From positions 1 through 53,672 of the forward strand of contig JAGYLU010000006.1 of NCBI GenBank assembly GCA_018400755.1: 53,672 nucleotides of DNA, written 5' to 3'. The stretch is from Acholeplasmataceae bacterium. GTDB lineage: Bacteria; Bacillota_I; Bacilli_A; Acholeplasmatales; Acholeplasmataceae. Both the position numbers and the translations under genes were made by a program. Below, one piece after another: positions 1,709 to 34,824 of the stretch. The notes under the pieces are model-generated. The model ran no database searches, had not been told where the DNA came from, and saw nothing but the letters and a program-made list of their open reading frames with translations. Each line of letters starts with the position of its first letter. The stretch's first letter is position 1.

Positions 1709-2743
1709 CTATTTTGGCGGTTGGGTTGTTTCCCGTCGGATCAGTGTCACAGGAAGTTTGATCACTTCGGGGATCATCGCATCCGGGTCTTCCATCAACG
1801 TGATCAACTGCTTGGCAGCCATCGTTCCCAAGGCCATTCGATCCTGACGAACAGTGGTCAACGGGGGGGTGAAATGCTTGGCGAAGGTGATGTCATCAAA
1901 GCCGATGACCTGGATCTCTTTTGGAACATTGATGCCATGATCCTTCAGGGCTTTCAAAACACCAAGCGCGATATCATCACTCGCGACCAAGAGACATTCA
2001 GGCATGTCTTTGGACTTTGAAAGCATGTCAAGAATGGCGTTGTAGCCACTGGTGAAACCGAAGCTTTCGGCTTCGATCTCACAGGCCTTGACCCTCGTCA
2101 GACCATAGACATCCGAGAACTTGACATAGGCATCCCGACGCTCAAGAAACGCTTTCGACCATAGCGGACCAAAAATCATGCCGATCCGGTCCAATTTCAG
2201 TTCCTTCTTGACGTATTCAAGGGTCATCCTGATGCCTTCCTCGTTATCGGAAACCACGGTATGGAGCCCTTTCAATAGCATGTCGGTCGAGACACATGGA
2301 ATATCACTTTCGATCAGCTCATAAAGGCCTTTGTCGTTGTAATTGCCAACGACAATATAGACACCGTCGACCCGTTTGTTCATACACCATTCATAGTATG
2401 ACAACTCATGCTTGCCAAGTTTCTTGACGATGAAGCTCAGTTCATAGCCTTCCTTTTCAAGATAGCTTTTGAAGTGCTGAAGAATCGACGAGAAAAAGGA
2501 ATGTTCAAGACCGATATCGGTTTCTTCGGTGAAGACGATCCCGACTGAGTAGGTCTTTTTGCTTTTGAGCATCCTGGCTGAGGTGGTTGGCACATATCCG
2601 ACTTCCTTGATATGGGCAAGCACCCGTTCCCGGGTTGCCTCACTGACATTCCCGGTCTGGTTCAACACCTTCGAGATGGTCCCTGGGGCAAGCTTCAGTT
2701 CCTCAGCAATCGTATAGATGGTTCTCTTCTTACTCACCGTCAT
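1709..2743 (-). CDS. LacI-family transcriptional regulator of the beta-glucan operon
   Basis: 344 residues. The N-terminal helix-turn-helix reads YTIAEELKLAPGTISKVLNQ, followed by the hinge region (ARMLKSKKTYSVGIVF) and a periplasmic-binding-protein-like sensor domain ending in the usual VIGFDDITFA and LTTVRQDR elements. I chose the ATG at 2743 rather than the upstream one at 2827 because the longer form adds 28 residues before the HTH that LacI proteins lack. The start overlaps the GH16 stop by 14 bases. It lies inside the operon between GH16 and the second phosphorylase, so it probably controls its own operon through the palindrome at 6382-6395. The inducer is probably a beta-glucan oligosaccharide (inference). 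Confidence 0.9.
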   Translation of the reverse strand: MTVSKKRTIYTIAEELKLAPGTISKVLNQTGNVSEATRERVLAHIKEVGYVPTTSARMLKSKKTYSVGIVFTEETDIGLEHSFFSSILQHFKSYLEKEGYELSFIVKKLGKHELSYYEWCMNKRVDGVYIVVGNYNDKGLYELIESDIPCVSTDMLLKGLHTVVSDNEEGIRMTLEYVKKELKLDRIGMIFGPLWSKAFLERRDAYVKFSDVYGLTRVKACEIEAESFGFTSGYNAILDMLSKSKDMPECLLVASDDIALGVLKALKDHGINVPKEIQVIGFDDITFAKHFTPPLTTVRQDRMALGTMAAKQLITLMEDPDAMIPEVIKLPVTLIRRETTQPPK

Positions 2744-3464
2744 CACTCTTTTCAAATACTTTGACCGATTTGAACTCAAATCGTGCCGGTAAGTCCTGAT
2801 CAACAATCGGACCGCCCCATGAACCACCCAAGGCGATGTTCATGATCAGGTAGAACGGCTTGTCGAAAGGCCACTGCTCCACTGTCGCATTTTTGGGCTT
2901 ATGAAAGACACCATGCGTCTCATCATCGATTCGAAAACGGATGACATCACTTTCCCAATCCATGGCATAAAGATGAAATCCATCTTGGAGTCCGTCTCTT
3001 TTGACAATCTCAACGGGCTGGTTGTTCAAAAACAAGTAATTGGATTGTGAGTGCAGTGACGAATGAACGACGCCTGGATTGTGTCCGACATGTTCCATGA
3101 TATCGATTTCTCCACACAAAGGCCAAAGGACACCTGACTGCATATTGACACCTAAAAGCCAGATCGCTGGCCATGTGCCAATCCCCTTGGGCAGTTTGGC
3201 GACAACCTCAATCCTGCCACCAGTCATATGATGTTTGGTATAAGTTGTGAGTTTCGCTGAGGTGTAGTGGCGATTCTGATACGCCTCCTGTTTGGCGACA
3301 ATCGTCAATATCCCGTCTTTGACAAAGGCATTGTCCAGACGGTCAGTGTAGTATTGTTCCTCATTGTTTCCAAAACCGTGGCCACCTGTCTCAAGGTGCC
3401 AATGTGCGGGATTGGGCGCACCGTCTTGCTCAAACTGGTCTTCCCAAACGATTTTATAAGCCAT
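2730..3464 (-). CDS. GH16 endo-beta-1,3(4)-glucanase (laminarinase-type), cytosolic
   Basis: 244 residues covering a complete GH16 beta-jelly-roll domain and nothing else. The catalytic signature ExDxxE is present as GEIDIMEHVG (nucleophile Glu, assisting Asp, acid/base Glu). WPAIWLLG in the substrate cleft and the C-terminal FYLIMNIALGGSWGG block are also typical of laminarinases and lichenases. The start MAYKIVW at 3464 is set by GGAGG nine bases upstream; the longer reading from 3485 has no such site. No signal peptide is visible, which is unusual for GH16. The enzyme would cut imported oligoglucans in the cytosol and feed the phosphorylases on both sides. It overlaps its neighbours by 11 and 14 bases, so translation is coupled. 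Confidence 0.9.
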   Translation of the reverse strand: MAYKIVWEDQFEQDGAPNPAHWHLETGGHGFGNNEEQYYTDRLDNAFVKDGILTIVAKQEAYQNRHYTSAKLTTYTKHHMTGGRIEVVAKLPKGIGTWPAIWLLGVNMQSGVLWPLCGEIDIMEHVGHNPGVVHSSLHSQSNYLFLNNQPVEIVKRDGLQDGFHLYAMDWESDVIRFRIDDETHGVFHKPKNATVEQWPFDKPFYLIMNIALGGSWGGPIVDQDLPARFEFKSVKVFEKSDDGE

Positions 3465-3879
3465 TTTTGAGTGCCTCCAATGCATGGATCATGGATTGAT
3501 GTATCTCAGGATCCAAAGGGATCCTGACAGAATTCGTCTGATCGGTCGACTCTTCCTCAATGATCAGAACCTTGGCGTCCAAAGAGAGCACCTGAGTGTG
3601 GTAAACCCCCTTACGGACTTTCAGTACACGATGTTTTTCGAGAGGAAAAACCTTGAAATCAGTGATCAAATCATCTTTTACCGTGGCAATCACCACCGTG
3701 CAGTCACCTTCAAGTAGCACAAATGCCTCATCTGAGAGCAAATGGGCTTCGACATAGGTGATCTCGTTTTGCTCAAGTTCGTGGATATGATTGAGCATGG
3801 CCACCCGCCAACTGTTGAAATGGAAGAGTTTCTGGTATCCCGGATGCTCAAAGGCAAACTGTTCGACATCAGGCATCAA
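3454..3879 (-). CDS. Small cupin-like protein of the beta-glucan operon, function unknown
   Basis: 141 residues, or 140 from the second Met. I do not recognise a named family. The segment EAHLLSDEAFVLLEGDCTVVIATV followed by KHRVLKVRKGVYHTQVLS (shown here in overlapping pieces) has the look of a single-domain beta-barrel cupin: a turn, 'LEG', beta strands, then a 'KGVYHT' loop where a cupin histidine would sit. It overlaps the stop of the upstream GH94 gene by 11 bases and its own stop overlaps the GH16 start, so it is made together with these enzymes. Possible roles are sugar binding, anomer conversion or an accessory of the phosphorylase. These are guesses from context only. Confidence 0.7.
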   Translation of the reverse strand: MMPDVEQFAFEHPGYQKLFHFNSWRVAMLNHIHELEQNEITYVEAHLLSDEAFVLLEGDCTVVIATVKDDLITDFKVFPLEKHRVLKVRKGVYHTQVLSLDAKVLIIEEESTDQTNSVRIPLDPEIHQSMIHALEALKNGL

Positions 3880-6367
3880 GCATCACCTCAATGTCACCAT
3901 CGATGTGTTCAATCACAAATGGGACAGAACGACCACCCATTCTGACATCGACGACCCGATATGCTTTGTGATCGAGCCCTTTGGGATTATGATAACTCAC
4001 CGTTCTCAAGTGTCCAAACAACATGGTCTGAATCGAGGCTTTGCCGTTGATGAAATCCTCTTTGGAGAGCTTAGGCTCAAAATGGACACTGCCAAAAGAG
4101 AGACGGATACCAAAAACCTGTTCACGAAGGAGCTTGAGCATCCAGCTCGCTGACCCTGTCAGATAAGGATACATGCCAATCCCTTGGTCATTGAAGTACT
4201 CCGGAATCCCGAGCCACAATTTCGATGAAGGGTCCTGGGCTTTGTCAAGAATCGCCCGGTATGCTTCCCGGCCTTCCTCAATCAAATCATATTGGTAGAG
4301 ACCGTAAGCATACATGACCGCCATATGGGAGAAGACAGCACCATTTTCCTTGTGTCCGTAGGCAAAACCAAACGCCCGTCCGATATCGTTCATGCCATCT
4401 TTGTAAGGGGTGTTCAGACGATAGCCACCACCGTGTTTGTCAAACAAAGCTTTTCTGGTCGTCTCTTTGAGCACATTGGCCTGAGCCGCGGTTGGGGTTT
4501 TTGACAACAGCGCAATCGCCTGACCCGTCAGGTTGACATCATGAGGGCGGTCAAGCAAGGTACGGTCTTCGGTATAATAGCTTAGAAAACGGTTCTCGGC
4601 AAACGCCTGATTTCTGAGAAAGTCAATGCGACTCTGGGCAAGGTCTTTCAAACAGTTCTTGAGATAGATAGGCTCAATCTTGATGGTCTTGCCGTCAAAA
4701 TCCTTGACCTTGTCAAAAAACGCGTGAAGATCGGGATGATCAAGCAAGAGTGACTCAAGTGCTTCAAAAAGACAGAGATGGTCAGTTTCAAGGGTCGCCA
4801 CAATATCGGATAGAATGAGGAGATTTCCGGCATACATATGGGAAAACGCGATCGATTCTCCGTGTTTGGGGGCCATGTCAAGGCCATCATTCCAGTCGGC
4901 ATCCTCAAGTCTTAAAAAGCCGTGCGCTCCGACGTTGTGATACCCGACCAGATTCTCAAGCAAAAGATGTTCAAGCACCGTGCCTTGATAGATCCGGCCT
5001 TCAGCATCCTTCTCAACCCCTTCCTCGCGGCTAGGGTCATTCTTTTTGACGTAGTGGGTCATGTTATCTTTGAAGTAGGTTTGTTTTTGAAAGAGAATAT
5101 CGGTCTCTCCGGTCTCATCAAGATACATCTTGATGGTCAAAAGGGGCCACGCCCCGTGATCGGACCAGACCCTGGGAATCTTGTTTCGATCAGCCAAAAA
5201 TTGTCCGGGTTGATCCCCGATGATGGTCGCATTCGAGCCATCGATCCGGACCCCGGCGAGGTTGTTGATGATCAGATTCGAAACCGATTGGTCATTCATC
5301 ATGATCAAAGCCAACAGATCCTGCCATAAGTCACGCCATCCCCGACCACCACGACCGTAATCATGGTGAGGCATGTAGGAGTTACCGAAATCACGTCTCA
5401 ACAGGGGTTGCATGGCCACCCAGGAGAGTTGTTTTGAGGTCTCTTCGTCCTTAAGATGAAAAGAGAGTTTCTGAACGTGTGTCATATAATGGGCATGGAC
5501 GTCCTCAAGACCTTGATCAAAGGTCAGATGATTGAGATAACGCATGCCAAAAGCTGACGCTTTTGCCTGTGACTGATGGATGCCAATGGATAGAAAGAGG
5601 GTGATTGCCTGACCAGGTTCGATTGAGTACGCTTTGAATCCAAGCGCGCCAATCGCCTCATAGCCACAGATGACATCGCCTGGTCGCCTGCTTGAATCAA
5701 GGCCCCGGGGATATGACAAAGACCCGCCTGCCATGAAATCATCCGTGACGGGAATATAGCGGTCGATGGTCAACTCAGGGCTTTGTGCAAAGACGCTGTA
5801 AACAGTCTTGTTCACTTGGTGCCCGCGCTCATCAAAGGTCAGTGTCGGAGACAGCATGATCCCTGAATCAACGACCTCGATGACATTCAGCAACGATGTC
5901 ACGTGACGATGGTCACGAAGATTGTCGGCGGATCTTCCAAAGAGTGGGATGGCAGTGGTGATCCGCATCAAAAGTGGTGCTTTTGTGGTGTTGGTCACCA
6001 CAACCTTATGGACTTCGACCATGTCATCCAAAGGGACATAACTGGTCGTATCGATGATGGTCTCAGGGCCGGTTCTGATCACTCTCTGGTATAATAGACC
6101 GGTTTCATAAGTGAGGTCATCGGCGGATTGTGATTCGGTCTGTCCGTTTAAAGCCAACCTTTTCCCGTTGTATTCAAAAAAGACGTTTCTTGAAAACGTT
6201 GGATTGAAAACATCAACGACAGATGCCGGTGACAGGGCATAATGGTCGTGATCGGTTTTCAGATCACCTGCAAAAAAGGGGGTGATGGCGGATTTGAGGC
6301 CTCTTGGATTGAACATCGGAAAGACGTAACCATCATTTCCGATCAAAGGTTTTCTTTTGATCATCAT
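3869..6367 (-). CDS. GH94-type beta-glucoside phosphorylase (laminaribiose/cellobiose phosphorylase-like)
   Basis: 832 residues, the usual length of GH94 disaccharide phosphorylases (about 800). The N-terminal two thirds of the sandwich domain are followed by the (alpha/alpha)6 barrel with YGRGGRGWRDLWQD and the catalytic-acid loop DADWNDGLDMAP, where the Asp of DWND is the family's general acid. A phosphate-loop-like SFGSVHFEPKL and a typical C-terminus are present. The expected reaction is disaccharide plus phosphate giving alpha-glucose-1-phosphate plus glucose. With GH16 next door, laminaribiose is the favoured substrate; Acholeplasma laidlawii has a characterised laminaribiose phosphorylase of this family. 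It is the first gene of the operon, 15 bases below the operator at 6382-6395. The exact linkage specificity is inference. Confidence 0.85.
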   Translation of the reverse strand: MMIKRKPLIGNDGYVFPMFNPRGLKSAITPFFAGDLKTDHDHYALSPASVVDVFNPTFSRNVFFEYNGKRLALNGQTESQSADDLTYETGLLYQRVIRTGPETIIDTTSYVPLDDMVEVHKVVVTNTTKAPLLMRITTAIPLFGRSADNLRDHRHVTSLLNVIEVVDSGIMLSPTLTFDERGHQVNKTVYSVFAQSPELTIDRYIPVTDDFMAGGSLSYPRGLDSSRRPGDVICGYEAIGALGFKAYSIEPGQAITLFLSIGIHQSQAKASAFGMRYLNHLTFDQGLEDVHAHYMTHVQKLSFHLKDEETSKQLSWVAMQPLLRRDFGNSYMPHHDYGRGGRGWRDLWQDLLALIMMNDQSVSNLIINNLAGVRIDGSNATIIGDQPGQFLADRNKIPRVWSDHGAWPLLTIKMYLDETGETDILFQKQTYFKDNMTHYVKKNDPSREEGVEKDAEGRIYQGTVLEHLLLENLVGYHNVGAHGFLRLEDADWNDGLDMAPKHGESIAFSHMYAGNLLILSDIVATLETDHLCLFEALESLLLDHPDLHAFFDKVKDFDGKTIKIEPIYLKNCLKDLAQSRIDFLRNQAFAENRFLSYYTEDRTLLDRPHDVNLTGQAIALLSKTPTAAQANVLKETTRKALFDKHGGGYRLNTPYKDGMNDIGRAFGFAYGHKENGAVFSHMAVMYAYGLYQYDLIEEGREAYRAILDKAQDPSSKLWLGIPEYFNDQGIGMYPYLTGSASWMLKLLREQVFGIRLSFGSVHFEPKLSKEDFINGKASIQTMLFGHLRTVSYHNPKGLDHKAYRVVDVRMGGRSVPFVIEHIDGDIEVMLDA

Positions 6368-6381
6368 GTTTATGTCCTCTT

Positions 6382-6395
6382 GGAAATCGGTTTCC
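6382..6395 (-). promoter_or_regulatory. LacI-type operator at the beta-glucan operon
   Basis: GGAAATCGGTTTCC on the plus strand is a palindrome with a central CG (half-sites GGAAA/TTTCC), the form bound by LacI-family proteins. It covers the expected transcription start just below the -10 box at 6403-6408, so repressor binding would block initiation. The LacI gene at 1709-2743 in the same operon is the obvious candidate, giving autoregulation. Confidence 0.7.
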
Positions 6396-6402
6396 TATAT
6401 TC

Positions 6403-6430
6403 ATTATATCGGAAAAGCGGGAAATGTAAA
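6403..6430 (-). promoter_or_regulatory. Promoter of the beta-glucan operon
   Basis: Reading the minus strand, TTTACA (6430-6425) and TATAAT (6408-6403) are 16 bases apart. The leader to the ATG at 6367 is short and contains GAGG as SD. Confidence 0.75.
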
Positions 6431-6454
6431 GGTATAGACAAATGAAAAGTCATC

Positions 6455-6480
6455 AAAAAAACCCGTTTCGTCCGGGTTTT
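6455..6480 (-). terminator. Rho-independent terminator after the GH30 gene
   Basis: On the minus strand AAAACCCG, a 7-base loop and CGGGTTTTTTT lie just after the GH30 stop at 6488. It separates the GH30 operon from the beta-glucan operon promoter. Confidence 0.85.
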
Positions 6481-6487
6481 CGAGTGT

Positions 6488-7804
6488 TCAAAGCAAAAAC
6501 GTGGAAATACTATGGGCCAAAACCGGTGTTTCAAGAAGCGCTTTCATCCCTTTGACCCTGATGTTGATGTCCTCTTCTGATTCATTCATGACAATCAGGA
6601 CAATTTGGCCATCCGGATTTCGAAAGACAACATGACGACAGAGCGAGGAAGGGTCTGATCCAAGACGGACAGCACCAGCTTTGATGTATTTCGAGAAATG
6701 CCCCATGACATGATACGAGGGATTCAAGACAATGTGCTCATGGAAGATCTTGAGCATCACCGGTGATGAACACAGGTTGTTGACATGGTTGGGTCCTCCT
6801 GTGTCATCAAGGACAAGATTCCAGTCGATGTGTCCTTCATTTCCCCTTCTGAGATCTTCTATGATGTTTCGACCATAGCGCTCACCAACACCCCAATCAC
6901 CAAAGTGAGGGCCGTTTTCCTGACACCCTTCGGTGAACAACAGATGCTTCTCTGGAAACAACTCACGATGGATACCAACCTCGTCAAACTGTTCCTGATC
7001 ATACCAATGATAGGCGGTTCCATACACATACTTCGATGCCTCAGGATCTTGATAGATGACTTTGGCCCGTTGGACCATCTGATCACGGTTATGATCCCAA
7101 ATGTAGAGTTTGAGATCGGTCATACCTTGCTCGGCCAATGTCTTTCCGAGCACTTTGACGAATCTGAGTTCATCCTCGTCTTCGAAGATACACGAATCCC
7201 AGCGCTGCACCGCCATCGGCTCATTTTGTACTGTGAGGGCGAACAGGTCAATACCTTTGGCCCGGTAATGTGCGACGAACAAAGCGATGTAGGACGCCCA
7301 GAGAGAATCATATGAAGGAAGGAGCTTGCCCCCACGGATTGGACTTTGGTTGTCTTTCATCCAAAATGGTGGGGTCCATGGGGAGCCGAGGATCTTGATG
7401 CTTTGTCCGGCAACCTTTGAGGCGTCATTGATCAGATCGATGATCGGCTGATCCCTTTCAACCGAAAATGAAGTCAGTGTGTCATCATAATCATCGATAT
7501 AGAGATAACTGCCCAGGCTGAAGTCACAACCATGGATGGAGACCCTTCCAAGCGTGTATCCAATCCCTTCGTCAGGACTGAAATAAGCCTTGATGACCTG
7601 GTCTCTGACTTCTTTTGAAACCCGGGAAAGGTTATACGCACTGGCTTCTGTGAAGGCCCCGCCAAATCCTATGATGGCCTGATGGGTGCTGGTGGTATCC
7701 ATCCTGAGTTCTTCTGTCTTCAGGGTTGGATCCGCTTTGACGATATCGGTCTCAAATAGACGTTCATTTGTTTTCTGACATGATCGGATGTGTCTGATGG
7801 ACAT
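6488..7804 (-). CDS. GH30-family beta-glucanase/glucosylceramidase-like hydrolase
   Basis: 438 residues of a GH30 (beta/alpha)8 barrel with its side beta-domain and no signal peptide. IIGFGGAFTEAS near residue 45 is the usual family opening. The acid/base Glu is in TVQNEPMAVQ and the nucleophile Glu in LLFTEGCQENG, and both are intact. NLVLDDTGGPNH and SSPVMLKIF are typical of the clan A hydrolases called glucosylceramidase, beta-1,6-glucanase or beta-xylosidase. Given the neighbouring laminarin enzymes, removal of beta-1,6-linked glucose branches is a reasonable role (inference). I chose the ATG at 7804 (SD AGGAG 11 bases upstream); a TTG at 7810 is possible and adds two residues. It overlaps the upstream gene stop region, so translation is coupled. 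Confidence 0.85.
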   Translation of the reverse strand: MSIRHIRSCQKTNERLFETDIVKADPTLKTEELRMDTTSTHQAIIGFGGAFTEASAYNLSRVSKEVRDQVIKAYFSPDEGIGYTLGRVSIHGCDFSLGSYLYIDDYDDTLTSFSVERDQPIIDLINDASKVAGQSIKILGSPWTPPFWMKDNQSPIRGGKLLPSYDSLWASYIALFVAHYRAKGIDLFALTVQNEPMAVQRWDSCIFEDEDELRFVKVLGKTLAEQGMTDLKLYIWDHNRDQMVQRAKVIYQDPEASKYVYGTAYHWYDQEQFDEVGIHRELFPEKHLLFTEGCQENGPHFGDWGVGERYGRNIIEDLRRGNEGHIDWNLVLDDTGGPNHVNNLCSSPVMLKIFHEHIVLNPSYHVMGHFSKYIKAGAVRLGSDPSSLCRHVVFRNPDGQIVLIVMNESEEDINIRVKGMKALLETPVLAHSISTFLL

Positions 7805-7806
7805 GG

Positions 7807-8580
7807 TCAATCATTCTCCTTTTGATGACGTGATTTCAATATGCTATGAAGAAACGCGCCAATGGCGATGTCAAGTACCAAGAAGATCGTCACATTGCGC
7901 ATCATTGTCGGCCGAAGGGTCTCTTCAAGGTTCAAAAGTGTCTCAATCTCGGCTTCATCATAGCCGGCGATGAATCCGAACTCCAAAAAGGTCTCATTCT
8001 CTCTGATCTCTTGAATCTTAGTTCTTGTCATGGCCTCATAAGACAGATTGTTCGAATAGATGATCTGACCTTGATAATCGGTGAGTTCAACCGTCAGATC
8101 CAAGGGATCGTCAAGGGTGATCGCATAGAAATAAAAACCGATGACTGCGACCCCATAGCTGACGGCATAGCCATCATATTCAGGGTCATCCGATGTCTGA
8201 TAGATGACCTCACCATCTGCCGGTTTGGTCAATCTGATGCCGGTCTGGTCATAGCTGTCTTCTAGTTCGGTGGCGTGATTGATGGGTTTGTTCGGAAAGA
8301 CAAAGACCGAGAACTGATTGACATATGACTCATCGATTGATGCGAGGACATGCACCACATGGATGTCATATGAGGCATTGGAATCACGGTCGATCACTTG
8401 ATAGGCAATGGACTGATACTTCATGAATGGGTCAATGACATCACTTTCAAGGGCTTCTTTGGCAAGCTCATAATAGAGATCGACACTGCGCTTGTTGGTT
8501 TCTTGGATCAAGGTAAAGAAATAAAGGAAAACAAGCAAGATCAAGCTGAAGAAACTATAGACAATCAAAAATCTTTTCAT
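7807..8580 (-). CDS. Two-TM membrane protein with extracytoplasmic domain, unknown
   Basis: 257 residues. A hydrophobic helix at residues 4-24 and another near 230-247 (MRNVTIFLVLDIAIGAFLHS) flank a domain of about 200 residues that would lie outside the membrane. The topology resembles the sensor half of a membrane receptor kinase, but no kinase, HAMP or signalling domain follows; the protein ends after a short basic tail. Its start overlaps the S51 peptidase stop by four bases (ATGA) and its stop abuts GH30. An orphan response regulator lies upstream in the same direction. A sensing or enzyme-anchoring role is only a guess. Confidence 0.75.
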   Translation of the reverse strand: MKRFLIVYSFFSLILLVFLYFFTLIQETNKRSVDLYYELAKEALESDVIDPFMKYQSIAYQVIDRDSNASYDIHVVHVLASIDESYVNQFSVFVFPNKPINHATELEDSYDQTGIRLTKPADGEVIYQTSDDPEYDGYAVSYGVAVIGFYFYAITLDDPLDLTVELTDYQGQIIYSNNLSYEAMTRTKIQEIRENETFLEFGFIAGYDEAEIETLLNLEETLRPTMMRNVTIFLVLDIAIGAFLHSILKSRHQKEND

Positions 8581-10787: not shown

Positions 10788-11789
10788 CTAAAAATCCTTT
10801 CTGAGACCATATGCACGACCTCGTCGCCTTTTTTGGTCCATCATGAAGCGTTCGACCTCATCTTTTGTCGGAAGACCATCCATCGCACCATACCTTGTCG
10901 TGGTGATCGCAGCTGCGGCATTGGCAAAGGCCAGCATCTCAAACATCGCGGTTTCATCGAACGCACGGGGATCCCTTAGGGCAGCAACCCTCGAAAGAAA
11001 GGCCCCGATGAAGGCATCACCAGCACCGGTCGTGTCCTTGACATCAACCTCGAACCCCGGGTGTGAGACTGTCTTTGTCTTGGTATGAAAGGACGCACCG
11101 TGCTTTCCTTTGGTCAAAACCACATAACGGACGCGGCCTTTGAACAACGCCTTGATCTGTTCTTCAAAAACCGTTTTTCCAGTGATGAACTGAAGCTCAT
11201 CTTCGGCTACCTTCACCAGGTCAGCCTCATGGATAAACTGATTGATGGTTTCCCGGTAGCGCTCATGATCCTTGAAGAGCGCAAGCCTGACATTGGGATC
11301 GAAACTGATAAAACGGTCATGCGCCTGGAACTCAGCAATCAGTTTCACGTGGGCTTCTTTGATTGGGAAGTCACCAAGACTGACTGAGCAAAAATGGAGG
11401 ATATCACCCGCTTTGAACGCCTCAAATCTGAGATCCTCAGGGGATAACAACTGATCGGCACTGGGATCACGATAAAAGATGAAATCACGGTTTCCCTCAT
11501 GATCAAGCGTGACAAACGCCAAAGCGGTATGGGCCTGATCGGTCTGTGTGACGTAACTCGTATCAACCCCATAAGATGACACAACGTCCTTCAAAAAGAC
11601 GCCAAAAGCATCATCACCAACTTTGGTGACAAGCATACTCTTGGTTCCTAGACGACTGGCAGCGACAGCCACGTTGGCTGGTGCGCCGCCAGGTTTTTTC
11701 ATGAATCCAGACACTTTGTCGAGGGCGATTCCCTTCGTATCCGGAATGAAGTCAATCAGCAATTCACCGATACTGACAATTCTTGACAT
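10788..11789 (-). CDS. scrK: PfkB-family fructokinase
   Basis: 333 residues of a ribokinase-fold sugar kinase. GELLIDFIP at the N-terminus, KPGGAPANVAVAASRLG (PfkB signature 1), FYRDPSADQLL and the ATP/catalytic motif DTTGAGDAFIGAFLS (signature 2, catalytic Asp in GAGD) match bacterial fructokinases closely. The reaction is fructose plus ATP giving fructose-6-phosphate. AAAGGAG lies six bases before the ATG. It is the third gene after beta-phosphoglucomutase and the GH65 phosphorylase; this combination suggests that the GH65 substrate releases fructose. A hairpin at 11823-11853 lies in the gap to GH65 and may set relative mRNA levels. Confidence 0.9.
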   Translation of the reverse strand: MSRIVSIGELLIDFIPDTKGIALDKVSGFMKKPGGAPANVAVAASRLGTKSMLVTKVGDDAFGVFLKDVVSSYGVDTSYVTQTDQAHTALAFVTLDHEGNRDFIFYRDPSADQLLSPEDLRFEAFKAGDILHFCSVSLGDFPIKEAHVKLIAEFQAHDRFISFDPNVRLALFKDHERYRETINQFIHEADLVKVAEDELQFITGKTVFEEQIKALFKGRVRYVVLTKGKHGASFHTKTKTVSHPGFEVDVKDTTGAGDAFIGAFLSRVAALRDPRAFDETAMFEMLAFANAAAAITTTRYGAMDGLPTKDEVERFMMDQKRRRGRAYGLRKDF

Positions 11790-11822
11790 GTGCGACTCCT
11801 TTCAAACTAAGGATTCGAGGAT

Positions 11823-11853
11823 GGGGAAAGCACCTTTCAAAGGTGCTCCCCCC
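11823..11853 (-). other. Intercistronic hairpin between GH65 and fructokinase genes
   Basis: On the minus strand GGGG-AGCACCTTT pairs with AAAGGTGCT-TTCCCC. A run of nine G (C on the plus strand, 11848-11856) leads into it. No U-tract follows, so it looks like an RNA-stability or processing element rather than a terminator. Confidence 0.6.
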
Positions 11854-11890
11854 CCCAGGAGAAAAACAATGAAACCGGTGATGACGTCTG

Positions 11891-14155
11891 CTATAAGGCA
11901 TTCAAGTCTTCTTCATAAACGGTTTGGATCCGATGCCTTGTGCCGTTGATCATCACATCAATCTGATGATCGGTTTCCAAGCGGAAGTGATTGTTGGTCA
12001 CAGATATGAATAACCGACTTCCCTGATACATGATGGTGGCGGCAAATGTTTTAATCGATGTCTGAAAGACCGGTTTGAGGGTCAGGATTTCGGTCATCTT
12101 CAAGCCAAAGAGCCCATAGATCAAAGTCAGATAGGTCCCTCCAAGATTCGCGACATGCAACCCATGTTGGGTATGGTTGCGCAAGTTGTCGAGATCAAGC
12201 CTGAGACTTTCTGTCCAATAGTCATATGCCCGCTCATGATCACCAATGTGATATGAAGCAATGCCATACATGCATTTGGAGAGACTCGAGTCATGAGTGG
12301 TTCGTAAAAGATAGTGATGGGTCGAATTCCGATACAATGTCTGATCATTCTCACCAAGCAATGTCATTGCGAGGACAGCATCCGCTTGTTTGAGGATCTG
12401 ATGGCGATAAATCATCATGGGGTGATAGAAGAGCAGCATCGGATGATGATGTCTAGGAATCTGATTCAGATCAAGTTCTGGCAAGGTGTCAAAGGTACTG
12501 TCTTGAAGCGCGATCATTCGGCTAGGATCGATCAGAAGCGTCATCTCCTTGGCCGCTTTGGCCATGGTCTTGACTTCATCATCAGATAGTCCTAACCGGT
12601 TGATGACCTGATCAAGGTCTTGCCGGTGACGATCATAAAGCATGACGACCCACTCAAAGTGTGCTTTGGCCATCCGATTGGTATAGTAATTATCATTGAC
12701 AAGGACGGTGTATTCATCCGGTCCAGTCACCCCATTGATATGGAATGCCTCACCCATGAAATGGCCATATCCGAGGATGAATCGGGCTGTTTCCACCAGA
12801 AGCTCAAACCCTGCTTCTTCAAGGAACGCCCAATCCTGGGTGGCATTCAAATATTGCATGGTGGCGAAAGCAACATCGCTATTGATGTGGATTTGCGCAC
12901 TACCAGCTGGAAAATAAGGGGATGCCTCACTGCCGTCAATGGTTCGCCATGGGATTTTCACCCCTTGATTCACACCTAAGCGTTTCGCTTCTTCCTTGGC
13001 TTGTTCAAGGTGCCTGAAACGATAGGTCAAAAGGGTTTTGGCCTTGCAAGGATTGGTCAGGATGAAATAGGGAATCATGTAGATTTCGGTATCCCAGAAA
13101 TAGTGGCCTTCATAGCCTTCACCACTGATGCCTTTGGCAGCGATCTGGAGATGATCGCTCACCCCTCCGGACTGATCAAGCTGAATCATATGATAGAGCA
13201 AAGCGGTCATGATCTTGGGATCATCGACATAGGCTGGCAAATCCTTGAAAAACCGTGTCTGATAGGATTGCTGCTGCGCCAATAGTTCATCAAAGGAAAG
13301 GATCTGACGGTTCAGATCATCGATTGTTTCATTGAAGATTCCAGATGATGTCTCATACATCATCTTGGTCGTGATGATGATCGGATGAGCAGGTGAGAGA
13401 TGGTCTTCTCTTCTTTGAACCACTGAACGGGTGCGTTTCTCATGGGTGAAGGTCAGGTCATGCTTGATCGCAACTGTCACATCCATTGCCGTATGCGTGG
13501 TCCTTGCTGTCATCATCGCCATGCCACGGATGATGTCATGCGATACATATTCCAGATGATGACGGCCTTGGGCGAGTCTGGGGTCATTGGCGGTAATGGA
13601 CTTCACTTTGGGCAGTTGGAGTTCAGATTCAAATGTGATCGGACCTTCATAGTCTGTTGTCTCAATGGAGAGACGGCTCACCGCCAAACCTAAGTGAACC
13701 TTTGACACAAGTCGTTCTTCTGAGATGATCACGGTCACCCCGGAAGGCATCTGATAGACCGCTTTCCGTCTGGTCATCCCCTGTGCCATATCAAATGTCC
13801 GTTTCAAAGATATCAACGTGGCATCTGTCAGATTGACGTGCTCTCCGTTTAATGAGATCGTCATCGTGGTCGCATCCATCACATTGACAAGGACTTGTCC
13901 CAACTGGGGAAACTGCAATGAGTTTTCCTCATAGGCATACGGATACCGATTGAAGAATCCGTTGATGAACGTCATGTGATAACTGTGATCACCGCCATAC
14001 CCTTCCGCGAAGTGTCCACGAATCCCCAGGATACCATTGGCAAGTGAAAAAATGGTCTCATCGACGTAGAGTTCGGACAATGACATCCGGTTGTTTCTCT
14101 CCAATTGTTTGGGCAGTGACCGAATCAGGTCATCCGCTTTGACTCTCATGGTCAT
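11891..14155 (-). CDS. GH65-family disaccharide phosphorylase (alpha-glucoside)
   Basis: 754 residues, full length for GH65. The N-terminal beta-sandwich is followed by the (alpha/alpha)6 barrel with GYEGHYFWDTEIYM, the general-acid Glu in VTGPDEYTVLVNDNYYTN, and THDSSLSKCMYGI, which lies in the phosphate-binding area. A short C-terminal beta domain ends the protein. GH65 enzymes split alpha-linked disaccharides with phosphate, giving beta-glucose-1-phosphate. The start at 14155 overlaps the beta-phosphoglucomutase stop as ATGA; the longer reading from 14215 would run into that gene. The operon kinase is a fructokinase, so the substrate may be a glucosyl-fructose rather than maltose or trehalose (inference). 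Confidence 0.88.
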   Translation of the reverse strand: MTMRVKADDLIRSLPKQLERNNRMSLSELYVDETIFSLANGILGIRGHFAEGYGGDHSYHMTFINGFFNRYPYAYEENSLQFPQLGQVLVNVMDATTMTISLNGEHVNLTDATLISLKRTFDMAQGMTRRKAVYQMPSGVTVIISEERLVSKVHLGLAVSRLSIETTDYEGPITFESELQLPKVKSITANDPRLAQGRHHLEYVSHDIIRGMAMMTARTTHTAMDVTVAIKHDLTFTHEKRTRSVVQRREDHLSPAHPIIITTKMMYETSSGIFNETIDDLNRQILSFDELLAQQQSYQTRFFKDLPAYVDDPKIMTALLYHMIQLDQSGGVSDHLQIAAKGISGEGYEGHYFWDTEIYMIPYFILTNPCKAKTLLTYRFRHLEQAKEEAKRLGVNQGVKIPWRTIDGSEASPYFPAGSAQIHINSDVAFATMQYLNATQDWAFLEEAGFELLVETARFILGYGHFMGEAFHINGVTGPDEYTVLVNDNYYTNRMAKAHFEWVVMLYDRHRQDLDQVINRLGLSDDEVKTMAKAAKEMTLLIDPSRMIALQDSTFDTLPELDLNQIPRHHHPMLLFYHPMMIYRHQILKQADAVLAMTLLGENDQTLYRNSTHHYLLRTTHDSSLSKCMYGIASYHIGDHERAYDYWTESLRLDLDNLRNHTQHGLHVANLGGTYLTLIYGLFGLKMTEILTLKPVFQTSIKTFAATIMYQGSRLFISVTNNHFRLETDHQIDVMINGTRHRIQTVYEEDLNAL

Positions 14156-14811
14156 GGGCGTTGCCCCGCAATCAAATCTTCTAATATCTCTTTGGACAAA
14201 TCGGTCAGTGAGCAAACACGAATGTCCGCTTCACTCAAGTCTTCATCGCCAACCCCGACCGCCACCATCCCCGCCCGTTTGATGGCACTGACACCGGCCA
14301 CGGCATCCTCGAATCCGATGGCTGCCTTGGGATCAATACCAAAATGCTTGGCGGCATCCAAAAAGATGTCAGGATGGGGTTTTCCCTTCAGTGGTGATGG
14401 ATCAACCACATAATCAAAGAGATTTTCAATACCGAGTCGTTCCAAAAGAAAAGGCGCGTTTCTAGATGCACTTCCCAAGGCGATCCAAAGATGTCTTGAT
14501 GACAAAAAACGGATCACATCAAGAGCGCCGGGAAGAAGATCCTCAGCACTGAAATGATCAATCAATTGTCGGTAATGGGTATTTTTCTCATATGCCATCG
14601 CTTTTTTTGTCTCTAGATCCTCTAGAATCCCAAAAATAGAAAGCAGACGATCAAGTGAGTCCATCCGTGAAACCCCTTTGGTGATCGCTTCGAGTTCAGG
14701 GTCAAGGGTAATGCCATAACGACGGTCAAACAACGCCTTCCATGCCTTAAAATGGGCATCTGTTGTCGAGGTGATGACACCATCCAAATCAAAAATAGCC
14801 AATTCAAGCAT
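14152..14811 (-). CDS. pgmB: beta-phosphoglucomutase
   Basis: 219 residues of a HAD-superfamily mutase. The nucleophile and acid/base pair are in FDLDGVITSTTDAH (first and second Asp), followed by a helical cap (FKAWKALFDRRYGI), LGSASRNAPFLLERLGI (motif II Ser), KGKPHPDIFLDAA (motif III Lys) and GFEDAVAGVSAIKRAGM (motif IV). The reaction is beta-glucose-1-phosphate to glucose-6-phosphate, the standard partner of GH65 phosphorylases. GGAGG seven bases before 14811 fixes the start; the longer form from 14841 lacks an SD. It is the first gene of its operon, below a consensus promoter at 14931-14959. Confidence 0.92.
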   Translation of the reverse strand: MLELAIFDLDGVITSTTDAHFKAWKALFDRRYGITLDPELEAITKGVSRMDSLDRLLSIFGILEDLETKKAMAYEKNTHYRQLIDHFSAEDLLPGALDVIRFLSSRHLWIALGSASRNAPFLLERLGIENLFDYVVDPSPLKGKPHPDIFLDAAKHFGIDPKAAIGFEDAVAGVSAIKRAGMVAVGVGDEDLSEADIRVCSLTDLSKEILEDLIAGQRP

Positions 14812-14858
14812 CTCATATCCTCCTATCACAACAGAAACCACACGTCATCACACAGGCG

Positions 14859-14872
14859 TGAAAAGGTTTTCA
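14859..14872 (-). promoter_or_regulatory. cre-like operator in the pgmB leader
   Basis: TGAAAAGGTTTTCA is a near-perfect palindrome that differs from the CcpA/LacI-type consensus (TGAAAACGTTTTCA) only at the centre (GG for CG). It lies about 55 bases downstream of the predicted start of transcription and 48 bases before the gene, where a bound LacI-family protein would act as a roadblock. Confidence 0.55.
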
Positions 14873-14883
14873 TTTTTCGGGTT

Positions 14884-14915
14884 AAAAAGAAGTGTCGGAT
14901 GTCGATATCCGACAC
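14884..14915 (-). terminator. Leader terminator/attenuator-like hairpin upstream of pgmB
   Basis: On the minus strand a perfect 9-bp stem (GTGTCGGAT/ATCCGACAC) with a 6-base loop is followed by TTCTTTTT. It begins less than 10 bases after the predicted transcription start and lies before the first gene, so it can only end or protect this operon's own transcript. Confidence 0.6.
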
Positions 14916-14930
14916 GCTTCGAACATAAGA

Positions 14931-14959
14931 ATTATACCATTTGGACCATCAGGTGTCAA
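14931..14959 (-). promoter_or_regulatory. Consensus sigma-A promoter of the pgmB-GH65-fructokinase operon
   Basis: On the minus strand TTGACA (14959-14954), exactly 17 bases, then TATAAT (14936-14931), with TGG just before the -10. This is a full-consensus promoter, so regulation must come from downstream elements (hairpin, cre-like site). Confidence 0.88.
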
Positions 14960-15125: not shown

Positions 15126-15136
15126 TCATGGGATAT

Positions 15137-15163
15137 AAGACGCCGTCTCGGGGTCTTTTTTTC
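15137..15163 (+). terminator. Terminator of the tRNA gene
   Basis: AAGACGCC pairs with GGGGTCTT (one G-G mismatch) around a 5-base loop and runs straight into a T-tract, 11 bases after the tRNA. Confidence 0.65.
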
Positions 15164-15235
15164 TTCTTGAGGGTTTATGGGGCGTTCAAGACGTGGTACA
15201 ATAACATCATCATCATGACCATGTGGGGTGAGTCC

Positions 15236-16518
15236 ATGTCATCACAAGATTTCAATCTGCCATACTTGCGCGTCCTAGACGAAGAACTCGTTATCGCCGT
15301 CGGATGTACCGAACCGGTGTCATTGTCGCTTGCCGCCGCGAAACTAAAAATCCGATTCAATCGCGAACCTTCAAAGATCATCGTCAAAACCAGCGGTCCC
15401 TTCTTCAAGAACATCCGCGCCGCGGTGGTTCCCGGTACGAAGACTCTCTCAGGGATCAAAGCAAGCATCGCCGCCGGGCACATCAGTGGCGATCCCACTA
15501 AAGACCTCGAGGTGCTCTCGGATGCCCTTCATCCTGAAGCCCTCAAAGCCATCAACCTGATGGCTGAAAAAGACATCTATGACATCCAAGTGATGAAGAC
15601 CAATGAGCCATTGCACTTCATTCTCCGTTATCAAGACGATGACGGCTATGCTGAGATCGAGGTCAAACGTTTTCATACGGGTACCGTCAGACTCGAAGTC
15701 GATGGCAAACAAATTCCATTGTCAAACCCGAACAACCACCGTGATGGCAAACCCCTGATTGACCGCTCATTCATGCGTTTCGATGGGATCATCGACTTTG
15801 TCGAATCCATTGATATCGATACCCTGAAGCACATGTTCGACCCCACCATCAACCATAACCTCGCGATCGCCAAAAAGAAGGCCTTAAAGGGGCCCAGAAT
15901 GTCAACATCGGTCGAGACCCTGATCATGAAAGAAATCCAACTGTCTATGGTCGGGTGAAAGCCCATGCCGCACCGCTTCGAAGCCCGTATGTGTGGATGC
16001 TAAGATGTTGTCACGAATTCCGGAAGCGGAAACCAAGGGATTACCCGCCTCGTGCCAGTGATTGTCTATGCCCGAGAAAAAGACGTCTCGAAGAGCGTCC
16101 GCTCAGGGCTTTGGCCTTGTCAGCGCTTCCGACAATCCACCGGAAAAACGGTATCGGAAGACTCTCCGCGTTTTGCGGCGCAATCAGTGCGGCCGCCGCC
16201 CGCAGGGGCGTCTATGACATGGCTGAAGGCGGTACAAGAGCGATGATCAAAACGACAGTCACCAACACGTTGGCCAGCGCCGCAGGCATTTTCTGTGACG
16301 GTGCGAAAGGGTCTTGTGGATTCAAAATCGCCACCGGACTCGATGCCGCAATCACCGCTCATCTGATGTCTATGAACGGACAGTTCTACAAACCTGGGGT
16401 CGGAATCGTCAAAAAAGATGCCGATGAGACCATTCGGGCGATCGGCACCATTGCGACAAAAGGGATGCAAAAAACCGATGAGGTCATCCTCGAGATGATG
16501 ACCGAAGACACATGGTGA
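15236..16518 (+). pseudogene. Frameshifted UPF0597/CyuA-type gene (L-cysteine desulfidase/serine dehydratase alpha-like)
   Basis: The first 240 codons read cleanly from the ATG at 15236 (SD GGGGTGAG) and contain the iron-sulfur motif VGCTEPVSLSLAAAKLK. The frame stops at 15958, yet the rest of the family continues in other frames. EARMCGC, an in-frame TAA, then DVVTNSGSGNQGIT and PVIVYAREKDVSK lie in one frame (about 15985-16095). RPLRALALSALPTIH, IGRLSAFCGAISAAAA and CDGAKGSCGFKIATGLDAA lie in another, open to 16518. At least two frameshifts and one nonsense codon break the gene, with a further local disturbance near 16200. Family members are cytosolic iron-sulfur enzymes that split L-cysteine or L-serine. 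Real decay seems more likely than one sequencing error because several independent lesions are present. Confidence 0.8.
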
Positions 16519-16594: not shown

Positions 16595-17575
16595 TTAAGT
16601 GGTTTCACCGACGTTCAGATTGACAGGAACAATCCTGTTTCCGGGTGTCTCTTTGCGGATTTGTGCTTGGACCAGTTCGACAATGGCATCCGCCAATGCG
16701 CGCGGTGGCTGATTGATCGATGTGATTCTTTTCCCGAGATTCAGAAAACTTTCGCCGCCGTCATAACCGATGACTTTCACATCTTCGGGGACCCGACGGC
16801 CATTTTTTTCGATGTTTTTGACGACTTCTGCCGCGACTGCGTCACTGATACAGAAAATGCCATCAACCTCGCGGTGTAGATTGATTGTCCGGTGGACATC
16901 CTCGGGAATATAGATATAATTTCCAAGCGGATATTCGACATTGATGATGTCGGTGATTCCGTGCTTTCCAAGTTCTTCGAAGAATCCGATCCGGCGCTTG
17001 CTGACCTCGGTCTCAACGGCGGTTTGTTCGCCTTGGGCATCATCACCGATGAACATGAAGTGCTTGCAACCAACCGCCAATAGGTGGCGGGCAGCAATCA
17101 CACCTCCATTATAATTATCACTTGCTACAAAAGGGACACCTTCAAAACGACGGTCGAAACTGACCATCGGCAAGCGTTTGTCAAGGTATGGTTCGACATC
17201 ATTGTTGGTGAGCAAAATGATGGCATCGACCCGATTTTTCTTGAGCATGTCAATATAGACAATCTCTTTCTCAAGGCGTTCAGATGAACTGCACACCATC
17301 AGTTTGTACCCCTGCTCATACAAAACCGTCTCAACGTGATAGAGCAGTTCCCCAAAAAACCGGTGAATGCTGTTTGGCAAAAGAAACGCAATGATGTTGT
17401 TGCGCTGAAGCGTCATGCTGCGGGCAATCTCATTGGGGACGTATCCGATTTCAGCAATGACTTTCTCAACCCGCTCCCGGGTTTCTTTTTTGACATAACC
17501 AGAATTGTTGATCACCCTAGAAACCGTTGCGATCCCGACACCTGCGCGTTTGGCAACCTCGATGATGTTAGCCAT
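16595..17575 (-). CDS. LacI-family transcriptional regulator
   Basis: 326 residues. The HTH IIEVAKRAGVGIATVSRVIN starts at residue 3, followed by the hinge (NEIARSMTLQRNNIIAFLLP) and the sugar-sensor domain with VIGYDGGESF and ITSINQPP at the usual places. The start at 17575 is chosen because the HTH must be N-terminal and GAGAGGAG lies upstream; the longer reading from 17677 adds 34 unrelated residues and covers a terminator. It stands alone, between the decayed desulfidase gene (convergent) and the deoxynucleoside kinase. The target operon cannot be told; the cre-like sites at 14859 and 28197 are candidates. Confidence 0.9.
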   Translation of the reverse strand: MANIIEVAKRAGVGIATVSRVINNSGYVKKETRERVEKVIAEIGYVPNEIARSMTLQRNNIIAFLLPNSIHRFFGELLYHVETVLYEQGYKLMVCSSSERLEKEIVYIDMLKKNRVDAIILLTNNDVEPYLDKRLPMVSFDRRFEGVPFVASDNYNGGVIAARHLLAVGCKHFMFIGDDAQGEQTAVETEVSKRRIGFFEELGKHGITDIINVEYPLGNYIYIPEDVHRTINLHREVDGIFCISDAVAAEVVKNIEKNGRRVPEDVKVIGYDGGESFLNLGKRITSINQPPRALADAIVELVQAQIRKETPGNRIVPVNLNVGETT

Positions 17576-28243: not shown

Positions 28244-29614
28244 ATGAAAAGAAATCTTCTACCAATCCTATTGATGTGCCTGTTTCTCGCCGGCCTTTAC
28301 GCCTGCAAACCCCCTGATGATATCATCATCGATGAACGCGAGGAACAATTTGAAGACGGCGCCACCAAAGTCAACATGTGGATTCACGACTTCGAAGACT
28401 GGAACAACTTGCTGAACTTCAAGCAACGGATGGACTTCAATGACATCCTAGATGACGGCATCCAGCTTGAACAGACCCTGATTGACACCGGGACATTCGA
28501 AGACCTGATCCGCTCCGCCCGGGAAACCGGCAACGAACCTGATATCTACATGGTCTCCTACGGCAATCTCTACAAAGAGATCCAAAACGGATACGCCGCG
28601 GATATCACTGACTTGCTGCCACAGTCCAGTTTCGATGACTTATACGATACTGCGACATCGGGTGTCCGATACGACAACCGCTATTACGGATATCCGATTC
28701 TGATGGAGCCCTCAACCTTGCTCTTCTACAACAAGACCTTGCTAGAGACGTATGGTGAGACATCGGTCGTACCCTCGAACTGGGATGATTTTACCCAGTT
28801 GCTTTCAACCATCAAGACCAATATCAGCGCTGCCAATGTCAAAGGGCTTTATCCTTTTGATGTACCCAAAGGCATCGGACTGGGTTGGGCTTCCTGGGGG
28901 TTGCAGCTGTCATCAACCGGCGGACTGGCACTTTCAAATGACTGGCGCACATCCCGCCTTCTTGATCCTGGTTATGAAGACCTCGCCGGACTTTGGAAGA
29001 CCCTCTATGAGAATCGCTATGTGCCTTTGAGTTCTGGTGATTACACCGAGGTCATCAACGATCTCTGCCTTGACAAGCTCGTGATGACCACCGCTGGTAG
29101 CTGGTCAATCGCCACCGTCATCAATGACTATCCCGATCTGATCGACAATATCGGAGTCGCGGTCATGCCAACCTTCTCAGGAGATACCAATATCCCGACC
29201 GCGACCAACGGCGGATGGGTCTATGTCATCTCTGAGGCTTCTGAGAACAAAGAAGCTGCTGCCAAGGTCTTGGAATACTTAGTCGCCGGTGCGACCGACA
29301 AGCCCCTTGAATACTTCAGAGGTGCCCGATATGCCAAGGCATCCCCTAGAATCAGCGTCCAAAATGCCATCACCGCCGAACTGTCATCCCAGACCGATGT
29401 GCCACAAGCTTGGATCAATGTCCTGACCTCGGTGGCTGCCCTCGCACCGATGGAACCCATTTATCCATGGGATGTCTCCATCGCCGTCTCGGCGATGCTT
29501 GAGAATGTCGCCCTTGGAAACAGCATCCAATCGGAAATCGATAATGCCCACCAGACCATCATCAATCTGATTACGACCAACAATCTGGCCGGAAACAATC
29601 CCCGAGGATCCTAG
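28244..29614 (+). CDS. ABC transporter sugar-binding lipoprotein (CUT1-type)
   Basis: 456 residues. A signal peptide ends in the lipobox LYAC (Cys at residue 21), so the protein is tethered outside the membrane. The mature part is a family-1 extracellular solute-binding protein: IYMVSYGNLYKEIQNG, a YGYPILMEPSTLLFYNK hinge strand and NWDDFTQLLSTIK, with NGGWVYVISEASENKEAAAK near the end. It lies 2 bases before the first permease gene. With the enzymes downstream, the ligand is inferred to be an oligosaccharide released from a furanose-containing glycan. SD GGAGG. Confidence 0.9.
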   Translation: MKRNLLPILLMCLFLAGLYACKPPDDIIIDEREEQFEDGATKVNMWIHDFEDWNNLLNFKQRMDFNDILDDGIQLEQTLIDTGTFEDLIRSARETGNEPDIYMVSYGNLYKEIQNGYAADITDLLPQSSFDDLYDTATSGVRYDNRYYGYPILMEPSTLLFYNKTLLETYGETSVVPSNWDDFTQLLSTIKTNISAANVKGLYPFDVPKGIGLGWASWGLQLSSTGGLALSNDWRTSRLLDPGYEDLAGLWKTLYENRYVPLSSGDYTEVINDLCLDKLVMTTAGSWSIATVINDYPDLIDNIGVAVMPTFSGDTNIPTATNGGWVYVISEASENKEAAAKVLEYLVAGATDKPLEYFRGARYAKASPRISVQNAITAELSSQTDVPQAWINVLTSVAALAPMEPIYPWDVSIAVSAMLENVALGNSIQSEIDNAHQTIINLITTNNLAGNNPRGS

Positions 29615-29616
29615 AC

Positions 29617-30510
29617 ATGAATCCCCACGCCCACCGGGAGGAGAAAGTCAGTGGACTTCTGATGGTCCTGCCGGCATTCGTGATGTTGCTGATCTTCGTC
29701 ATCACGCCTTTGGGCCTTGCCTTCTACAGAAGCTTCTTCGATTATCGGGCAGGTCAGGAAAGCATCCTTGTCGGCTTTGACAATTACATGAAGATTTTAA
29801 ACAACGAGGTCTTTTTCAAAAGCTTTTTCAACGTCTTGAAAATGACCCTTGCCATCACGCTATTCCAGATCATCTTCTCATTTTTGTTCGCGAACGCTTT
29901 GGTTAGGATCAAAGGCAAATTTGGCGTTTTCTCACGAACCATCATCTATTTGCCACACCTGATCTCAGGCATCGTCGTGGCGGTCATCTTCACCCTTCTG
30001 ACCACTTACAATGGCGGCATCATCAATGCCTTCCTAGGCATCTTCAATATCGAACCAATTCCTTTCAACAACAGTGAGTTCTGGTCACCGATCTCAATCA
30101 TCATTCCCACCGTCTGGATTGGCTTTGGCTACTTCTCATTGGTCATGTATGCTGGTCTGATCAATATCCCCAAAGAGTTCTTCGAAGCAGCTGAGATTGA
30201 CGGCGCTTCCTTCGCCCAACTCACCAGACATATTTCCATTCCCATGATGAAGAACTACTTTCTGCTTTTGATTGTGACCTTGATTGTCGCCAACATGCAA
30301 ATGTTTGAGATTCCGATGATCATGACCAATGGACAGCCAGCGAACCAGACCATGACACCCGTGCTCTATCTGATTCACAGCCGCTCCAACGGCAACATCT
30401 CGGATTCCGAGATTACCGCCGCAGCCATTTTGATCATGATCATGATTCTGATCGTCAACAGTTTCGTCTTCAAGATCTTCTCAAGACGGGAAGGACGGTG
30501 GGACCTATGA
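29617..30510 (+). CDS. ABC sugar permease, MalF-type
   Basis: 297 residues with six hydrophobic segments. The EAA loop that contacts the ATPase is FFEAAEIDGASFAQLTRHIS. The N-terminus (PAFVMLLIFVITPLGLAFYR) is typical of UgpA/MalF-type proteins. It overlaps the second permease by four bases. Confidence 0.93.
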   Translation: MNPHAHREEKVSGLLMVLPAFVMLLIFVITPLGLAFYRSFFDYRAGQESILVGFDNYMKILNNEVFFKSFFNVLKMTLAITLFQIIFSFLFANALVRIKGKFGVFSRTIIYLPHLISGIVVAVIFTLLTTYNGGIINAFLGIFNIEPIPFNNSEFWSPISIIIPTVWIGFGYFSLVMYAGLINIPKEFFEAAEIDGASFAQLTRHISIPMMKNYFLLLIVTLIVANMQMFEIPMIMTNGQPANQTMTPVLYLIHSRSNGNISDSEITAAAILIMIMILIVNSFVFKIFSRREGRWDL

Positions 30511-31352: not shown

Positions 31353-31365
31353 GGAGGAACCACCC

Positions 31366-32433: not shown

Positions 32434-32481
32434 TTCACCCGTCTATCATAGACGACACAATAAAAAACAAGGAGAAAAATG

Positions 32482-34383: not shown

Positions 34384-34396
34384 GGAGGGAATACCC

Positions 34397-34783: not shown

Positions 34784-34800
34784 TGACTTAAGAGACATTT

Positions 34801-34824
34801 GGGAACCGGGTGACCCCGGTTCCC
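34801..34824 (+). other. Intercistronic GC hairpin
   Basis: GGGAACCGGG pairs perfectly with CCCGGTTCCC around a 4-base loop. No T-run follows and the operon continues, so it is likely a processing or mRNA-stability element. Confidence 0.6.

Follow-up and report, generated by a model that had tools for sequence, protein, structure and literature searches.

Phosphorylases of glycoside hydrolase family 65 (GH65) can be told apart at six specificity positions (64/392/394/402/416/585), which read KV[MF]NES in maltose phosphorylases, EEAPxx in kojibiose phosphorylases and TRIGPP in a trehalose phosphorylase of GH65 subgroup 1 (De Beul et al., PMC8537180). In the acceptor loop, the Thermoanaerobacter trehalose phosphorylase has SAY, as against TPK in kojibiose and HNE in maltose phosphorylase, and several GH65 subgroups have no assigned substrate (PMC8537180). 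Here we describe a cluster of three genes, for a beta-phosphoglucomutase (pgmB), a GH65 protein and a PfkB-family fructokinase (FRK), in a 53,672-nucleotide stretch of DNA from an Acholeplasmataceae bacterium (GenBank assembly GCA_018400755.1, contig JAGYLU010000006.1). This stretch, hereafter the window, is one entire contig of a 2.23-Mb genome and holds the sole GH65 gene of that genome. The initial annotation had taken the fructokinase as a sign that the GH65 enzyme releases fructose from a glucosyl-fructose. We consider it reasonably probable instead that a trehalose-phosphorylase-like GH65 belongs to a regulon for disaccharides, in which FRK serves the sucrose arm.

The pgmB, GH65 and FRK genes are confirmed as real and correctly placed, with domain models, starts and stops agreeing with the identities and coordinates first assigned to them (Table 1). 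The view that pgmB acts on the product of GH65 also holds. The pgmB gene, which begins with an ATG at 14811 and whose stop codon ends at 14152, encodes the FDLDGVIT catalytic motif, passes its family cut-off and overlaps GH65, whose ATG at 14155 shares an ATGA with the pgmB stop. Elsewhere the two occur in one polypeptide, with pgmB first in an Erysipelothrix metagenome-assembled genome (L057 3832-6714) and GH65 first in Niveispirillum (L032 7881-10889). Unlike this overlapping pair, GH65 and FRK are separated by 101 nt containing a strong hairpin. FRK has a PfkB domain (PF00294, E 6e-67 in Pfam), and its nearest solved structures are the Vibrio and Xylella fructokinases (5ey7, 3ljs). Its best NCBIfam model is the fructokinase PRK09434, yet at 251 bits it does not reach the curated cut-off of 450 bits.

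The GH65 protein shows the N-terminal sandwich and the (alpha/alpha)6 catalytic domain of its family (PF03636, E 1e-39; PF03632, E 1e-92), with PF03633 slightly below cut-off. Among solved structures it is nearest by sequence to kojibiose, maltose and glucosylglycerol phosphorylases, all at low identity, and the fold of its AlphaFold model leads to the same families (3wir, 6w0p and 4ktr, TM-score about 0.8); the model served for fold comparison only, as the acceptor loops (residues 62-115 and 425-437) are its weakest part, with a confidence score (pLDDT) below 50. The catalytic acid motif GPDEY is invariant across 13 GH65 orthologues, and in the alignment the window GH65 has, like CsKP and LbMP, the KQxD and HxSSLS motifs, which bind phosphate in GH65 phosphorylases.

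At the six specificity positions the window GH65 reads Q64-R392-I394-P402-P416-(P or H)585, with Q64 read from an alignment with maltose phosphorylase and the placing of both 64 and 585 dependent on the alignment. In the numbering of the window protein, positions 64 and 402 are residues Q104 and P433. R, I and P at 392/394/402 depart from the maltose phosphorylase signatures KV[MF]NES and HNE, and neither EEAPxx nor the W391/E392/T417 of kojibiose phosphorylase is present, W-R and A standing at the corresponding places. R392, I394 and P416 are shared with TRIGPP, and where trehalose phosphorylase has SAY the window GH65 has S-P-Y, agreeing at S401 and Y403. Among the quoted motifs it thus appears closest to trehalose phosphorylase. 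Because Q stands for T at 64 and P for G/A at 402, the motif as read from the alignment fits no characterised subgroup exactly and its specificity is formally unassigned. In the loop comparison suggested in the initial annotation, the kojibiose and maltose signatures are thus missing and the trehalose phosphorylase type is matched in part.

Orthologues of this GH65 (37-53% identity) are found in Acholeplasmatales, Izemoplasmatales and Erysipelotrichaceae, usually in an operon of the order LacI, two permeases of an ATP-binding cassette (ABC) transporter, pgmB, GH65 and solute-binding protein, often with a fructokinase. The best solved relative of the solute-binding protein, 9xor, is named a maltose-binding protein, which does not give its ligand. 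Because a fructokinase-type gene recurs in or beside the GH65 operon of many relatives, the pairing of GH65 with FRK is not due to chance. These operon kinases fall into at least two distant types. Most members of the window type share 44-60% identity, with a more divergent set at 35-42%; the Halothermothrix type is 25-30% identical to the window type and has 3hj6 as its best solved relative. PfkB genes near GH65 in Alkalibacterium are only distantly related to the window kinase and have a 213-aa aldolase-like gene next to them; they were not counted as fructokinases. A tblastn search of plasmids returned GH65s at no more than 37% identity, and the two contexts inspected were uninformative.

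The pairing takes on a different meaning when separate sucrose enzymes are considered. We counted amylosucrase-like GH13_4, sucrose-phosphate synthase (SPS) and sucrose-6F-phosphate phosphorylase in 37 genomes, the window's and 36 related ones, that hold this GH65 or a near relative (the latter in L093 and L099). FRK and a sucrose enzyme occur together in 28, a sucrose enzyme only in three, neither in six and FRK only in none, so that FRK is always accompanied by a separate sucrose enzyme (28/28; Fisher p = 3.6e-5, uncorrected for kinship). Some of these genomes are incomplete; among the ten best, seven have both and three have neither. Among six independent pairs of relatives on the GH65 tree, kinase differences track sucrose-enzyme differences in 4-5 and run the opposite way in none, with a sign test that is not significant for so few pairs. 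Beside the Halothermothrix-type kinase, an SPS orthologue (504 bits to Halothermothrix 2r60) is found in nine Izemoplasmatales loci (L056, L059, L060, L064, L066, L067, L074, L076, L079) and in the clostridial L099; FRK and SPS are neighbors in every genome where both were found, and in L093 a sucrose-6F-phosphate phosphorylase (667 bits to 6s9v) adjoins FRK in place of SPS. Operons of Acholeplasmatales and Erysipelotrichaceae often carry a GH13_4 of about 605 aa beside the kinase (481 bits to the Deinococcus amylosucrase).

FRK and GH13_4 also occur together away from GH65, and GH65 occurs without either. In G035 a separate operon (L134) runs fructokinase, LacI, binding protein, permeases and GH13_4, with GH65 elsewhere in the genome. 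A LacI paralogue of its own and a variant palindrome, ATGTAAAGGTTTACAT, present twice (L134 12425-12505), suggest that this module has a separate regulator. In G132 one operon (L137) holds binding protein, permeases, fructokinase and GH13_4, and the GH65 operon (L049) includes a transporter of its own and pgmB but no kinase. L134 and L137 have transporters that do not group with the main GH65-linked clade. L052, like L049, has GH65 in an ABC-pgmB operon without FRK, and a search of its genome found no kinase or sucrose enzyme. Taken together, these comparisons suggest that FRK serves a separate sucrose-splitting enzyme. We read the arrangement as modular: ABC transporter, pgmB and GH65 would handle one sugar, FRK and a sucrose enzyme would handle sucrose, and the two modules would have been fused in many species, including that of the window. 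The step from fructokinase to GH65 substrate in the initial annotation is thereby weakened and not refuted, since GH65 and GH13_4 appear to share a regulator.

In the window's genome the GH13_4 gene is not linked to the cluster, and the connection is made by a common operator. A palindromic site, RTGRAAANNTTTYCAY, stands at the head of relatives' GH65 operons; with leave-one-out scoring, the best site lies directly upstream of an operon gene in 17 of 22 loci, and of the other five, four have sites at operon heads where the computed start of the open reading frame (ORF) is too early, and one has no site. The predicted operator upstream of pgmB scores 20.9 bits with a matrix trained without the window's genome (20 shuffles: mean 13.4, maximum 19.3). 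On another contig of this genome, C90, two stretches were scored: the best site of one (C90:10990; 17.6 bits, shuffles at most 13.7) is directly upstream of an unlinked ABC transporter of the GH65-linked type, and that of the other (C90:28599; 15.4 bits, shuffles at most 14.7) is directly upstream of the GH13_4 gene (C90:28677-30512). Because the same motif precedes all three, the transporter, GH13_4 and pgmB-GH65-FRK form a putative regulon, in which GH13_4 would supply fructose. The catalytic motifs of this GH13_4 (RLDAI, EAIV, CHDDIGW) are intact. Neither SPS nor sucrose-6F-phosphate phosphorylase was found in the window's genome, and no match over cut-off to GH13_18 sucrose phosphorylase (TIGR03852) was found in it.

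We therefore favor the view that the pgmB-GH65-FRK cluster belongs to a regulon under LacI control that serves alpha-glucosyl disaccharides taken up from outside. The transporter would import sucrose together with another alpha-glucoside, for which trehalose is the likeliest candidate. GH13_4 would split the sucrose and FRK would trap the fructose, both assignments being inferred by homology, and in other lineages SPS or sucrose-6F-phosphate phosphorylase beside the kinase would take the place of GH13_4. GH65, with phosphate, would convert trehalose or a close analogue to beta-glucose-1-phosphate and glucose, and pgmB would turn the beta-glucose-1-phosphate into glucose-6-phosphate. Because GH13_4 in the same putative regulon is another source of fructose, FRK is accounted for without fructose as a GH65 product. 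Trehalose as the GH65 substrate is the least certain step; it is suggested by the acceptor-loop residues and by the lack of a GH37 trehalase, none of which was found in 16 genomes. A search for trehalose-6-phosphate hydrolase gave many GH13 matches and none over cut-off. Peloplasma aerotolerans (G017), a cultured relative, grows on trehalose, sucrose and fructose (PMC11122141), and its growth on trehalose fits this account.

Several observations weigh against it. Positions 64 and 402 deviate from the trehalose phosphorylase motif, and the GH65 tree was built without any characterised trehalose phosphorylase sequence. GH13 alpha-glucosidases in these genomes could handle other disaccharides. 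The score of the GH13_4 operator, right as its position is, barely exceeds the shuffles; GH65 and GH13_4 could also have a common regulator because they act on one and the same sugar; and in four genomes (the window's own G000, and G001, G038 and G057) FRK lies beside GH65 with GH13_4 elsewhere. Although Peloplasma grows on sucrose and fructose, searches of its genome found no GH32, GH13_4, GH13_18 over cut-off, SPS, PfkB-type FRK or ROK kinases. Its growth on sucrose would also fit a sucrose-cleaving GH65, just as it would fit a GH13 alpha-glucosidase together with fructose taken up by another route.

There are two alternatives. If GH65 were an inverting phosphorylase of sucrose or another glucosyl-fructose, it would yield beta-glucose-1-phosphate for pgmB and fructose for FRK. 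We initially favored this reading for the FRK linkage and the SPS neighbors, and lowered it when GH13_4 and genomes with an FRK-free GH65 were found; we now regard it as rather unlikely, and that it retains some weight is mainly due to Peloplasma, which has this GH65 and grows on sucrose although the searches turned up no sucrose enzyme of the kinds looked for. It would explain why FRK of at least two distant types was recruited to GH65 operons, it suits an acceptor loop of a type made for a non-reducing disaccharide that nevertheless deviates at 64 and 402, and the SPS-type operons have no other gene that clearly gives free fructose. However, FRK follows the separate sucrose enzymes and not GH65, the FRK-GH13_4 modules have divergent transporters of their own, and two sucrose cleavers in one operon would be redundant. 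The G017 GH65, from a genome in which searches found neither FRK nor a sucrose enzyme, groups as sister to that of G004, a genome with both, and the two proteins have identical invariant acceptor-loop residues, so that GH65 with an unchanged loop occurs without FRK; in the window a hairpin also intervenes between GH65 and FRK. The statement that no GH65 with a natural glucosyl-fructose substrate is known stands, as there is none among the published specificities (PMC8537180) and a literature search by name found no paper describing GH65 acting on glucosyl-fructose. That the whole clade in Acholeplasmatales, Izemoplasmatales and Erysipelotrichaceae (Q64/R392/I394/P402/P416) consists of inverting sucrose phosphorylases, a specificity for which we found no GH65 report, is likewise rather unlikely.

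GH65 might instead act on another alpha-glucoside, such as kojibiose, nigerose, a glucosylated polyol or an oligosaccharide, with sucrose and fructose handled separately. The six-position motif has no exact match among characterised subgroups, and the solved structures that come nearest in sequence and fold are those of kojibiose and glucosylglycerol phosphorylases, which would agree with such a substrate. But the W391-E392-T417 signature of kojibiose phosphorylase and the HNE of maltose phosphorylase are missing, and at the quoted positions the loop PWRTI...SPYFPAG most resembles trehalose phosphorylase; we consider this possibility unlikely.

Table 1. Features of the pgmB-GH65-FRK region (window positions)
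Feature	Position	Strand	Evidence
PfkB-family fructokinase (FRK)	10788..11789	-	PF00294; PRK09434 best NCBIfam model; PDB 5ey7, 3ljs
Strong hairpin in GH65-FRK gap	11822..11861	-	gap fold -35.6 kcal/mol, z -2.2; no T run after
GH65 inverting alpha-glucoside phosphorylase (predicted), trehalose-phosphorylase-like acceptor loop	11891..14155	-	PF03636/PF03632; GH65 phosphorylases are best PDB relatives; loop PWRTIDGSEASPYFPAGSAQIHIN; GPDEY
pgmB, beta-phosphoglucomutase (HAD)	14152..14811	-	TIGR01990, 194.5 bits, above cut-off of 189.4; start and stop read
LacI-type operator ATGAAAACCTTTTCAC (predicted), between promoter and pgmB	14858..14873		best site in the 53.7-kb window
Palindrome with 9-bp arms, GTGTCGGAT-N6-ATCCGACAC, 24 nt	14892..14915		directly downstream of pgmB promoter; short T-rich stretch after
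Sigma-70-type promoter, TTGACA-17-TATAAT, TG before second hexamer	14931..14959	-	12/12 matches
LacI-family repressor	16595..17575	-	PF00356/PF13377; 63-73% identical to LacI of relatives' GH65 operons

The 24-nt palindrome below the pgmB promoter was found nowhere else in the window, nor in two other stretches of the genome examined, and may be an attenuator hairpin or a second operator. A second solute-binding protein of the same family is encoded in the window's genome within an 877-aa ORF (L132 7779-10412; G000:C2). Between pgmB and the LacI gene, two ORFs on the plus strand in different frames (15128-15958 and 15955-16518) look like halves of one serine/cysteine-desulfidase-like gene split by a frame change, real or due to assembly error. 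The first half has no Pfam match. Farther away, the minus strand at 1709-7810 encodes a LacI regulator, a GH16 glucanase, a GH94-like phosphorylase (weak Pfam match) and a GH30 protein; together these genes are probably an island for the use of beta-glucan, and its phosphorylase may be an unassigned one. The plus strand at 28244-41921 holds a predicted second island, for a glycan or deoxysugar. Its genes encode an ABC sugar transporter and, after it, proteins with DUF2961, DUF4185 and DUF6259, a kinase of the ribulokinase type and a strong match to L-fucose isomerase.

If our favored account is true, it calls for caution when substrates are assigned from genome context, as the kinase next to GH65 would belong to a second sugar of the same regulon, a fact visible only across genomes. 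It would also be worth noting that free-living mollicutes hold a coherent GH65 clade with an acceptor motif unlike that of any characterised subgroup and with a LacI operator that ties it to sucrose genes.

Among described systems, the GH65 alpha,alpha-trehalose phosphorylases (EC 2.4.1.64; Thermobispora and Thermoanaerobacter type) share with the window GH65 the fold, the catalytic acid, R392, I394, P416, S401, Y403 and the partner pgmB. The window protein differs in having Q and not T at 64, P and not G/A at 402, and a linked fructokinase. Kojibiose phosphorylases (3wiq, 6w0p) are its best solved relatives by sequence and fold, with the same domains and the KQ and HxSSLS motifs; in contrast, the window GH65 has no W-E-T recognition residues and its loop 3 is of another length and sequence. 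Sucrose modules of GH13_4 and PfkB fructokinase (L134, L137, L044, L050) give the window FRK the same type of partner elsewhere, whereas in its own genome GH13_4 is unlinked and tied to it by the common operator only. Finally, clusters with sucrose-6F-phosphate phosphorylase or SPS are carried by related GH65 operons of other orders beside the Halothermothrix-type fructokinase; neither of the two enzymes turned up in the window's genome.

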